A stretch of DNA of 64,000 nucleotides from Candidatus Saccharimonadota bacterium. GTDB lineage: Bacteria; Patescibacteriota; Saccharimonadia; Saccharimonadales; Saccharimonadaceae. A program made the translations under genes and the position numbers. The stretch is from assembly GCA_017510445.1 (NCBI GenBank), contig JAFWNF010000007.1:1-64000 (forward strand), given 5' to 3'. Positions within the stretch are counted from its first letter, which is position 1. Every line of letters begins with the position of its first letter. Below, one piece after another: positions 20,753 to 62,223 of this stretch. The notes below the pieces were generated by a model. That model made no database searches. It had not been told where the DNA came from and saw only the letters and a list, made by a program, of their open reading frames with translations.

Positions 20753-21388
20753 CTAACCTAATTTATAATATTCGCCTTCTGGAATATAGTCAGCATCTTC
20801 CAAATACTGACACTCATAAACAAGCTCCTCCGCATTCTTACAAAAATAAACTATCGCCGAACATGGTTCACCGGACTTATCGCTTAAGTCGCATTTCACA
20901 TAGAACCGTTTTTCTTTAGTCGCCCCATATCCAACCATTTTCTTCACTTCATATCCATCTACCCCGACTATATTCTCTATTTTGTCCTTAACGAGCTCAT
21001 CAAAAACAATAGTCCCAGAATTTCCAATTTTCGCACCTCCACAACCCCCTAACCAAAACCCAAATAAAATACCTACCAAACAAAAAACTAACCCAACCAC
21101 CCAACAGACAAATCTCCTATCGCGCCCATCATAGCCTATAGTAGCCGGCAACTGAGATTTTCCTCCGATTCCATCCGACGTCTCATTATCAATCAGATTG
21201 TCTATACTACAACCAAATATCTTCCCCAACCTAAATACATGCTCGGTACTAGGATAAGTACATCCATTTTCCCATTTAGAAACCGTCTGTCGCGAAACAG
21301 ACATTTTTTCAGCCAAATCCTCCTGTGAAAGCTGAGCCTTTGTCCGTTGTTTTCTAAGATTATCTTTAAACTTCATATCTAGATTCAT
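20753..21388 (-). CDS. Membrane-anchored XRE/HTH_3 transcriptional regulator
   Basis: About 211 residues. The Cro/CI-type helix-turn-helix spans roughly residues 5-60 (LRKQRTKAQLSQEDLAEKMSVSRQTVSKWENG). A single transmembrane helix (about 103-125) follows, then a Cys-containing extracytoplasmic domain, so it could relay an outside or redox signal to DNA. Start choice: ATG 21388 has GGAG six bases upstream; ATG 21376 lies 10 bases after a TATAAT that covers the first ATG; GTG 21400 is also open. Upstream AACTATCAACTATC is a tandem repeat and a possible operator. Co-directional with the DsbA-like gene. Confidence 0.88.
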   Translation of the reverse strand: MNLDMKFKDNLRKQRTKAQLSQEDLAEKMSVSRQTVSKWENGCTYPSTEHVFRLGKIFGCSIDNLIDNETSDGIGGKSQLPATIGYDGRDRRFVCWVVGLVFCLVGILFGFWLGGCGGAKIGNSGTIVFDELVKDKIENIVGVDGYEVKKMVGYGATKEKRFYVKCDLSDKSGEPCSAIVYFCKNAEELVYECQYLEDADYIPEGEYYKLG

Positions 21389-21457
21389 TATATACTCCAC
21401 CTAGTCAAAAAACTATCAACTATCAGGTGCAATTTTTAGTTTTTCTGCAAAATTCCC

Positions 21458-21525
21458 ATCAAAAAATCCCCGTCAAGGAAATTTTAGACAACAAGAAATC
21501 AAAGGTCTGTCTTTCAAGACCCTAT
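21458..21525 (-). ncRNA. Candidate small RNA, copy B of a two-copy family
   Basis: On the minus strand a consensus promoter (TTGACA 21555-21560, 17-base spacer, TATAAT 21532-21537) starts a transcript near 21525. It contains the hairpin GGTCT-N8-AGACC (21504-21521), then ATTTCTT and TGTCTAAAA, and ends in a hairpin with TTTTTT at about 21458-21485. Promoter, spacer, 5' hairpin and TCTAAAA block match the locus at 62111-62223. It might act in trans, or as an attenuator in front of the XRE regulator gene. Confidence 0.65.
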
Positions 21526-21531
21526 CATTCC

Positions 21532-21560
21532 ATTATATCATACCATAAGCATTATGTCAA
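21532..21560 (-). promoter_or_regulatory. Consensus promoter of small RNA copy B
   Basis: TTGACA, 17-base spacer TAATGCTTATGGTATGA, TATAAT. The spacer differs at only two positions from the promoter at 62195-62223. Confidence 0.85.
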
Positions 21561-48904: not shown

Positions 48905-51415
48905 CTAGAGGCTCCCCCAGTCCTTCCCTACCCCAACATCAACCATAAGTTTCACGTCTAGTTCTGGTGCCACCTTCTCCATCGTCGTTTTCAAAATCTC
49001 TGAAACTTCGTCGGCAATATTTTCATCACACTCAACAAGAAGCGAGTCATGCACCTGAATCAAAAGCTCTGCCCCCTTTGGTAGTTTCTTCTTTACAGCA
49101 ATCATTGCTCGTTTCATCAAATCTGCTTCAGTCCCCTGAATTGGCATGTTTTGCGCTGCTCTTTCTGCCGCACTACGAATCAAGAAATTAGACGATTTAA
49201 CATCCGGTGTCGGTCTTCTACGTCCGAAGAAAGTCTCGACAAACCCTTCTTCTTTTGCTTGTTTTAAAGTCTTCTCTAGATACTCCTTTACAGGCTTTCT
49301 AATTTCAAAATAATTCTCAATAAATTTTTTTGCCTCGAAAAATGACATTTCCGTCTGATCTGCCAAACTTTTCGCACTCATTCCATAAAGTACTCCAAAA
49401 TTAATCACCTTCGCCGCTCGACGTTGCGCCTTCGTCACTTTATCAAACGGCACATTAAACGCTTCGCTAGCTGTTTTTGTATGAATATCAATTCCATCAT
49501 TAAAATCCTTAATTAATGGTTTATCTCCCGAAAGAACCGCCGCTAGTCTCAGCTCAAATTGCGAATAATCTGCATTTACAAACACTTTTCCGTCACCCGC
49601 AACAAATCCAGTTCGAATCCTCTTGCCATCCTCACTTCTAACAGGAATATTTTGAAGGTTCGGATTTATACTTGAAAGCCGACCAGTCGCTGTCACATTT
49701 TGCGTAAAGGTTGTGTGAATTCGGTCATTTTCGTCCGCCAACTCAGGTAATGGCACAATATACGTCGAAAATAGTTTCGATGCTTCCCGATATTCAATAA
49801 CCTTCTCAATAATTTCATGTTCATTTTTTAATTTGTCCAGTTCTTTTGCCCCCGTTGAATAACCTCTGGTCGTTTTTTTAATACCTTTCGTTGGCAATCC
49901 TAAATCCGAAAACAGGATTTCCGACAGTTGAATCGGCGAGTTGACATTAAATTCCTTTCCTGCCAATTTCCATATTTCCTTTTCAAATTCCTGAACTCGC
50001 CCATTGAACTCTGTCTTTAGTCTCTCAAAGTATTCTCTAGAAATTTTTATACCGCTTTTTTCCATTGAAAAAAGCACTGGAATTAACGGTAAATCAAATT
50101 CCGTAAAAATCGTAAACAGCTTCGGAGTTTTTTTGAAATCCTCTATTTGTCTCAAAAACTCAGTTTCCTTATCTAGATCAAACAAACTAATTTTCTCGTC
50201 TCGAGACAACGGATTCAAGAGAAATCTCGCTTGCGACAAATCCCAAAACTTCTTCCCCGAAAGAATCTTTTCGGCAAACTTTTCATCCGAATGCATCCTT
50301 CCCTTCACATCCCACTCCACCAAATAATCCTCAAATTTCAGATTGATAATTTCTGCACCGTCCGAAGCGTTTTCGTCATCTTCAGAATTTATTTTTTCGA
50401 AACTTGTGAGTAGCCCTCTGTCATTCTTTACAACGGTTCCAGAAACCTGAGGAGGTAACGTCGTCCGATGGTTTCCTAGCGAACTGTTGTAAAAATGACG
50501 AGGCGCGTCAGGAACTCGTTGAGAAAAAGAAGATTCTGAAGATGAAAATGTCTTTTCTCCAAAAAACTTTCTCACAAGGCTTTTAAACTCAAGCTTCAAA
50601 AGCCCATTCTTGATTCTTTCTTCATCTACCACCAAATCTGGAACGTCACTCAATGAAACTGGTGCATCAAACATAATTTCCGCCAACTTTTTCGACATGA
50701 AAGCCGACTCTTTTCCATCGACCAATTTTTGCTTCAAAGAACCAGAAATTTGTTCAATATTTTCATAAATATTTTCTAGGGTCAAATAATCGTTCAAAAG
50801 CTTTACAGCCGTCTTTTCGCCAACACCAGGCACCCCAGGGATATTGTCGCTATTGTCACCCTTAAGAGCTTTGAGATCAAGAAATTGAGACTTTTTTATG
50901 CCATATTTTTCTTCAACCGCCTTAACATCAATTTCTTCAATTTTCGAAAAACCTTTAACCAACCGATACATTTTTGTATTCTCATCCACAATTTGTAGCA
51001 TATCCAAGTCCGAAGAGATAATATAGGTTTCATAGTCACCTAAATCATCAGCTTGTTTTGAAAGCGTTCCTATAATATCATCCGCCTCATAACCATCGCA
51101 TTCCAAAAATCCCCATCCAAGATCCGAAATTAGTTCTCTAAGAAGTGGAATTTGTGCATAAAAATCATCTGGCGGTTTTATTCTTCCCGCTTTATATTCA
51201 GAATATATTTCTTTTCGTTTCGAAATCGACGTTTTTGCCTTATCCCAAGCCACCACCACTTTTGTCGGTTTTAATTTATTAACAATTTCCATCGCAATCG
51301 AGGCAAAACCATACACTCCTCCTGTTGGTGTTCCATCAGACAAAGAAAGCGCGCCCATCGCATAATATCCCCGATAAAACACCGATTTTCCGTCTATAAT
51401 CACCAACTTTTTCAT
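48905..51415 (-). CDS. polA: DNA polymerase I
   Basis: About 836 residues. The 5'-3' exonuclease (FEN) domain occupies about 1-290 (KVVVAWDKAK, CDGYEADDIIGTL, GDNSDNIPGVPGVGEKTA). The middle domain lacks the DxE motif of proofreading enzymes, so 3'-5' exonuclease is probably lost. Polymerase motifs A (ADYSQFELRLAA), B (RAAKVINFGVLYGMS) and C (QVHDSLLVE) are intact. TATACT ends six bases before the ATG at 51415, so the start MKKLVIIDGK is chosen. Confidence 0.97.
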   Translation of the reverse strand: MKKLVIIDGKSVFYRGYYAMGALSLSDGTPTGGVYGFASIAMEIVNKLKPTKVVVAWDKAKTSISKRKEIYSEYKAGRIKPPDDFYAQIPLLRELISDLGWGFLECDGYEADDIIGTLSKQADDLGDYETYIISSDLDMLQIVDENTKMYRLVKGFSKIEEIDVKAVEEKYGIKKSQFLDLKALKGDNSDNIPGVPGVGEKTAVKLLNDYLTLENIYENIEQISGSLKQKLVDGKESAFMSKKLAEIMFDAPVSLSDVPDLVVDEERIKNGLLKLEFKSLVRKFFGEKTFSSSESSFSQRVPDAPRHFYNSSLGNHRTTLPPQVSGTVVKNDRGLLTSFEKINSEDDENASDGAEIINLKFEDYLVEWDVKGRMHSDEKFAEKILSGKKFWDLSQARFLLNPLSRDEKISLFDLDKETEFLRQIEDFKKTPKLFTIFTEFDLPLIPVLFSMEKSGIKISREYFERLKTEFNGRVQEFEKEIWKLAGKEFNVNSPIQLSEILFSDLGLPTKGIKKTTRGYSTGAKELDKLKNEHEIIEKVIEYREASKLFSTYIVPLPELADENDRIHTTFTQNVTATGRLSSINPNLQNIPVRSEDGKRIRTGFVAGDGKVFVNADYSQFELRLAAVLSGDKPLIKDFNDGIDIHTKTASEAFNVPFDKVTKAQRRAAKVINFGVLYGMSAKSLADQTEMSFFEAKKFIENYFEIRKPVKEYLEKTLKQAKEEGFVETFFGRRRPTPDVKSSNFLIRSAAERAAQNMPIQGTEADLMKRAMIAVKKKLPKGAELLIQVHDSLLVECDENIADEVSEILKTTMEKVAPELDVKLMVDVGVGKDWGSL

Positions 51416-62107: not shown

Positions 62108-62110
62108 TAA

Positions 62111-62141
62111 GAAAAACCCCACTTTTAGTAGGGAATTTTTC
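62111..62141. terminator. Bidirectional terminator for tRNA-Pro and small RNA copy A
   Basis: GAAAAA, CCC and ACT pair with AGT, GGG and TTTTTC around AAA, with one bulged base. T runs lie on both strands. Confidence 0.78.
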
Positions 62142-62188
62142 TTTTTAGACGCTCAAAAGAAATGGTCTCGGTCCATCCGAGACCTTAT
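62111..62188 (-). ncRNA. Candidate small RNA, copy A of a two-copy family
   Basis: On the minus strand the promoter (TTGACA 62218-62223, TATAAT 62195-62200) starts an RNA near 62188. The hairpin GGTCTCGG-ATGGA-CCGAGACC (62164-62184) is followed by ATTTCTTTTG, GCGTCTAAAAA and the terminator at 62111-62141. Promoter spacer, hairpin and TCTAAAA block are shared with the RNA at 21458-21525. It lies between tRNA-Pro and the 3' end of the surface protein gene. Confidence 0.65.
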
Positions 62189-62194
62189 CTTTCT

Positions 62195-62223
62195 ATTATA
62201 TCACACCATAAGCATTTTGTCAA
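62195..62223 (-). promoter_or_regulatory. Consensus promoter of small RNA copy A
   Basis: TTGACA, 17-base spacer AAATGCTTATGGTGTGA, TATAAT. It differs from the copy B spacer at two positions. Confidence 0.85.

Follow-up and report, generated by a model that had tools for sequence, protein, structure and literature searches.

Our reading of two minus-strand loci in a 64,000-nucleotide stretch of DNA from a Candidatus Saccharimonadota bacterium (the window) is that both belong to a class of promoter-proximal leaders at which RNA polymerase would pause or undergo attenuation, and from sequence comparison we give this reading a probability of about 0.5. The loci carry a repeated unit of ~80 nt (promoter, 5' hairpin and TTCTT..GAATGTCTAAAA block) that recurs elsewhere in the host genome, and a similar layout, built on unrelated hairpins, follows many promoters outside this family.

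The repeated unit in the window and in the host genome

The features of the two loci, with the basis of each assignment in brackets, are the following:

21532..21560, minus strand: locus 1 promoter, TTGACA-17-TATAAT, TATG ahead of the -10 (hexamer matches 12/12)
21502..21523, minus strand: locus 1 5' hairpin, AGGGTCT-N8-AGACCTT (scan and folding)
21482..21498, minus strand: locus 1 T-rich motif and block, TTTCTTGTTGTCTAAAA (aligned to the other copies)
21461..21484, minus strand: locus 1 probable terminator, AAATTTCC-TTGAC-GGGGATTTTTT (folds; absent from the consensus scan)
20753..21400, minus strand: HTH_3 (XRE) gene 3' of locus 1 (domain match, open reading frame)
62195..62223, minus strand: locus 2 promoter, TTGACA-17-TATAAT, TGTG ahead of the -10 (hexamer matches 12/12)
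62164..62184, minus strand: locus 2 5' hairpin, GGTCTCGG-N5-CCGAGACC (scan and folding)
62150..62162, minus strand: locus 2 pause-like motif, TTTCTTTTGAGCG, then TCTAAAA (sequence, alignment with copies)
62110..62133, minus strand: locus 2 intrinsic terminator, CCCTACTAAAAGTGGGG plus TTTTTCTT (consensus terminator 62133-62117)

A sequence-only reading of this DNA had described two TTGACA-17-TATAAT promoters with spacers differing at two positions, each followed by a GGTCT..AGACC hairpin and a common block ending in TCTAAAA. All of these elements are present (chance expectation of the promoter/spacer pattern within the window, 0.00), and the two loci are 87% identical over a 47-nt stretch. The terminators that it had placed at both loci are recovered by the consensus scan at locus 2 and by folding alone at locus 1, where a stem of about 9 bp is followed by six T; taken together with its T-tract, the 5' hairpin of each locus also scored as terminator-like. 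The neighbours are those that had been named, namely the HTH_3 gene downstream of locus 1 and, at locus 2, the end of a surface-protein open reading frame with a tRNA-Pro on the opposite strand, but the two settings are of different types. At locus 1, promoter, hairpin, block and likely terminator form a leader that precedes the HTH gene in the same direction (the likely start of the gene is an internal ATG with a Shine-Dalgarno sequence, at about 21389), and we read this leader as a likely attenuator. Locus 2 is not such a leader: it ends at a clear terminator adjoining the tRNA-Pro, and we read it as a predicted short terminated RNA.

The unit had been taken for a two-copy family, which proved to be an underestimate. 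The host genome (858 kb, 19 contigs) contains ten promoter matches with up to three mismatches, eight of them with hairpin and block, while a sequence-only profile recovers nine copies at full length (55-77 bits) and one further, diverged copy (29 bits), lower matches scoring at most 23 bits and being partial or covering mainly the promoter end. As had been proposed, the 5' hairpin is kept across copies with differences in the loop and in part of the stem sequence, and no Rfam family fits, the element having no match at the gathering score nor, in eight loci, at E <= 1. The terminator fared less well as a family feature: it is evident at about five of the ten copies, and the others are 5' leaders running into genes. 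The genes behind copies include glmM, metK, the HTH_3 gene of the window and open reading frames without a name. Several copy promoters begin 10-65 nt after the stop codon of a co-directional upstream gene, or overlap its end. A SAM riboswitch lies between one copy and metK, directly 3' of the copy (L006:1312-1404, minus strand; near 57000 in contig C9 of the host genome, G000), so that metK would carry two stacked leader controls.

Variation among copies provides modest sequence evidence for the hairpin. At stem pairs 3, 4 and 6, two-sided changes preserve pairing in some copies, and pairs are broken in others; pair 3, for example, is mismatched in five of the ten copies (C.A in four, T.C in one).

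Hairpin and T-rich motif after other promoters

Promoters were chosen in the host genome by their hexamers alone (TTGACA-17-TATAAT, at most one mismatch) and extended 300 nt downstream. In many of those outside the family, the RNA would begin with an unrelated hairpin and continue with a motif like ATTCTTTTCGAGTG, which gives the layout of 5'-end hairpin and TTNTTTYYGARTG. The motif was first spotted by eye in the host genome; as an unsupervised motif search returned ordinary terminators, it was then scored as a fixed pattern, with shuffles, other positions and congeners as controls. In its strict form (TTNTT-N1-4-GARTG, 20-55 nt after the -10) it follows 6 of the 57 non-family promoters, versus 0.13 in shuffles, and with one substitution 15 of the 57, versus 3.1 (maximum 8, 300 shuffles); farther downstream of these promoters it is rare. 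When only perfect non-family promoters are considered, the motif is present after 9 of 22 in the host versus 2 of 109 in congeners (p = 9e-7). Similarly, the host genome contains six instances of the strict promoter-plus-motif pattern and none of the reversed pattern, while 39 congeners have 0-2 each, close to control counts. Part of the motif-bearing promoters are paralogous (e.g. C9:17982, 21867 and 24520), so that independent cases are fewer than the count, and, the motif being missing in congeners, the evidence for this by-eye motif comes from one species. Across the whole window the motif occurs at chance level, and neither of the two matches inspected there (near 49029 and 57531) is preceded by a promoter and hairpin of this kind. 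The base at the N of TTNTT is C in 11 of 22 cases and T in 5, and as it is mostly not T, the T-tract is usually interrupted. The wider set, to which the two loci belong, would comprise about 25-30 transcripts starting with a hairpin and a T-rich motif.

A pseudouridine-synthase-like gene sets a trap for promoter scans in this genus, as part of its coding sequence (IDKN..KVCYNGKIV) has the look of a near-perfect promoter, TTGACAAAAA..TATGCTATAATGGAAAGATAG. We recognised this stretch, which imitates a promoter plus GGAAAGATAG, as a mimic; it accounts for sites L061, L065, L073, L081, L114, L117, L141 and L145 in congeners and L150 in the host genome (C5:72991).

The first 28 nt of the RNA were folded and compared with dinucleotide shuffles. 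Folding is in the best tenth of shuffles at 47-51% of the non-family promoters versus 12-23% of windows farther down. The corresponding proportion in congeners is 41%, which makes the 5' hairpin a trait of the genus and leaves the motif as the part special to the host lineage. The position of the motif tracks the end of the hairpin (r = 0.71; p = 0.0002 when positions are permuted among leaders, about 1 permutation in 5000 being as tight), certain leaders having a weak predicted hairpin or none. A median of 9 nt separates the hairpin from the G of GARTG, and an RNA end at GAR/TG (an assumed position) would therefore sit 12-13 nt past the hairpin. One might go further and suppose that the strong promoters of the host lineage are hard-wired to a checkpoint 30-40 nt into the transcript, consisting of the 5'-end hairpin and TTNTTTYYGARTG, at some 25-30 leaders; we regard this extension as possible but doubtful. 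In addition, a second -10-like site lies 40-150 nt on in 8 of 29 motif-bearing leaders versus 2 of 40 others (p = 0.014), which is suggestive only of a polymerase that would be paused just upstream of a second promoter in these leaders.

Other arrangements were observed close to strong promoters in this genus. Six congener sites (L068, L142, L064, L113, L122 and L074) have a strong promoter with a perfect terminator about 30 nt on, and often a second -10-like site between terminator and gene. A conserved leader, GTTGGGGCACAAAAAGTGCTCCACACCGCACCTAAATAARTTAT, lies directly 3' of the -10 in at least six congeners (G001:C6:116151, G003:C3:5473, G007:C5:81732, G009:C21:70052, G010:C11:5987 and G034:C9:35165), with hairpin changes that look compensatory, and a variant of it is found in the host genome (C6:150375). 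Three further host sites (C5:141758, C5:142626 and C9:3357; L178, L179 and L157) have a 5' hairpin whose loop carries TGGGAGG or a similar sequence. Finally, a short promoter-plus-terminator transcript (TATATTCGAGG..CCCCCC..GGGGGCACATTTTT) is common to two or three congeners (L058 and L059; compare L077).

Relatives and other readings of the unit

No full copy of the unit was found in the 173 congeners (174 genus genomes including that of the host), in which the best match reaches 43.8 bits and has a different hairpin, and pattern scans of GTDB and IMG/VR returned zero copies. Homologues with compensatory changes, which the sequence-only reading had looked to for support, were thus not found in these genomes and scans. 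The reading had also made its case depend on further copies: these exist in the host genome, but not in relatives. What congeners do have in common is a promoter style, GCTTATGGT-RTG-N-TATAAT-GGAA, and, on sequence evidence, the conserved promoter spacer is a genus-wide style rather than a mark of the RNA element.

The unit had initially been interpreted as a trans-acting or regulator-controlled RNA family. In its trans-acting form, such a family would consist of transcripts some 70-90 nt long, each with a 5' hairpin for protection, a terminator and a conserved single-stranded seed (UUCUUUUGAGUG..UCUAAAA) that might base-pair with A/G-rich ribosome-binding sites. The promoter, hairpin, unpaired conserved block and terminator expected of such RNAs are all present at locus 2 and at some four further copies. 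However, the copies that enter genes, about half of the total, have no evident terminator and would not be expected to give a discrete terminated transcript, the same motif recurs in leaders that precede unrelated genes and have unrelated hairpins, and relatives have no copy. Because about half of the copies are leaders and the layout recurs after unrelated promoters, the unit more closely resembles a signal that RNA polymerase reads in cis. We therefore disfavour the trans-acting interpretation, which we consider unlikely, and the tempting view of a new two-copy small RNA is corrected.

Could the unit instead be a dispersed, promoter-carrying repeat that spread in the host lineage, its conservation reflecting recent copying and no function? 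Ten related copies in one genome against zero in 173 congeners are what such a spread would leave, as are closely related pairs, such as the copies at C9:45720 and C9:126360, which have block and terminator in common. Moreover, glmM in the inspected congeners (62-71% identical) lies directly behind another gene, without the leader. Nevertheless, neither flanks in common nor terminal repeats were seen outside the unit, and copying leaves unexplained why the same layout occurs with unrelated hairpins and why motif position tracks hairpin length. This makes a repeat without function rather improbable.

A third interpretation would place the start of a leader peptide in the block (RTG TCT AAA A.., read as M-S-K..), with attenuation coupled to its translation. 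Several copies do read MSK.. or MLK.. from the RTG of the motif, some of them across the terminator. A long open reading frame farther downstream shares its frame with one site, and two more sites resemble real gene starts. Most of the other reading frames are very short, though, and this interpretation is very unlikely because 9 of the 30 motif sites, window locus 2 among them, have no start codon. Least credible of all is that the inverted repeat serves as the DNA operator of a dimeric regulator or belongs to an RNA of the opposite strand, for although the C.A at pair 3 becomes G.U on that strand (standard pairs in 9/10 versus 5/10 copies), the six-pair totals of the two strands differ little (52 versus 55 of 60), neither window locus has an outward promoter, the spacing between half-sites ranges from 8 to 11 among copies, the stem of one copy differs from the rest (GGAG/CTCC), and the stems of the other leaders are unrelated.

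A putative pause or attenuation step and its known counterparts

Under the pause/attenuation reading, a strong promoter would start an RNA whose hairpin folds at the very 5' end. The sequence TTNTTT(T/C)(C/T)GARTG would then place T residues in the non-template strand of the transcription bubble, with the RNA end about 12-13 nt past the hairpin, and hairpin and T residues together would hold RNA polymerase some 30-40 nt into the transcript, NusG and NusA assisting. Next, polymerase would either meet an intrinsic terminator 20-40 nt on or read through into the gene; termination would yield RNAs of about 70-90 nt at locus 2 and act as an attenuator before the gene at locus 1. What the sequences show is the layout, the number of copies, the enrichment of hairpin and motif after promoters, the coupling of their positions and the NusG residues; we infer that the polymerase pauses or terminates at this point, that NusG brings this about and that downstream genes are controlled in this way.

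The host genome encodes a single NusG, in which W-Y-..-R-N-T is kept in the alignment. The residues Y77, N81 and T82 (B. subtilis numbering) are present (WYIIRNTPGVTGF aligned to WYVVRNTPGVTGF). With one NusG in this genome, a NusG paralogue as reader of the motif was set aside. Congeners have the same kind of NusG and no motif, so that NusG alone does not explain the motif. In B. subtilis, the signal for NusG-dependent pausing consists of TTNTTT in the non-template strand at -11 to -6 and an RNA hairpin that lies 11-12 nt upstream of the RNA end (PMC12288461). NusG-dependent terminators tend towards interrupted U-tracts, and the insertion of two nucleotides between hairpin and RNA end turned one of them into a pause (PMC8060035). 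The TTNTTT sequence fits in most of our leaders, its position relative to the RNA end being assumed. Geometry and NusG residues would thus fit either a hairpin-stabilised NusG pause or a weak NusG-assisted terminator of the B. subtilis type, and we favour one of these as the attenuation step because of that geometry and those residues.

Very little is known about transcription control in very small episymbiotic bacteria, and neither for promoters or small RNA of Saccharibacteria nor for non-coding RNA of the CPR did the papers searched, judged by title and abstract, contain anything relevant. If true, lineage-specific, promoter-linked pausing or attenuation would give some 25-30 leaders a simple layer of regulation and would offer a natural experiment on the spread of such signals.

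Several known systems resemble parts of this arrangement. Like trans-acting small RNAs, about half of the copies have promoter, hairpin, single-stranded block and terminator; unlike them, the other copies are gene leaders, and no Rfam family matches. The leader hairpins of RfaH/ops and LoaP, which are specialised NusG paralogues, combine a hairpin and a pause in a promoter-proximal element, but in the host genome we detected one NusG and no paralogue, and the motif differs from ops. NusG-dependent intrinsic terminators of B. subtilis (PMC8060035) also have a hairpin followed by an interrupted T-tract, whereas our hairpins lie at the RNA 5' end and the motif spacing exceeds the 7-9 nt of release sites. 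The B. subtilis leader pauses (trp, ribD, tlrB and vmlR; PMC12288461) share a 5' leader location and the NusG residues and, if the RNA end lies where we expect it, a hairpin some 12 nt upstream of that end with TTNTTT in between. In contrast to these pauses, the present putative signals are tied to strong promoters, within the ~40 nt that follow them, and carry an extra GARTG, which is no part of the B. subtilis motif. The working parts are thus known from B. subtilis, and their promoter-linked, lineage-specific use is the new part.
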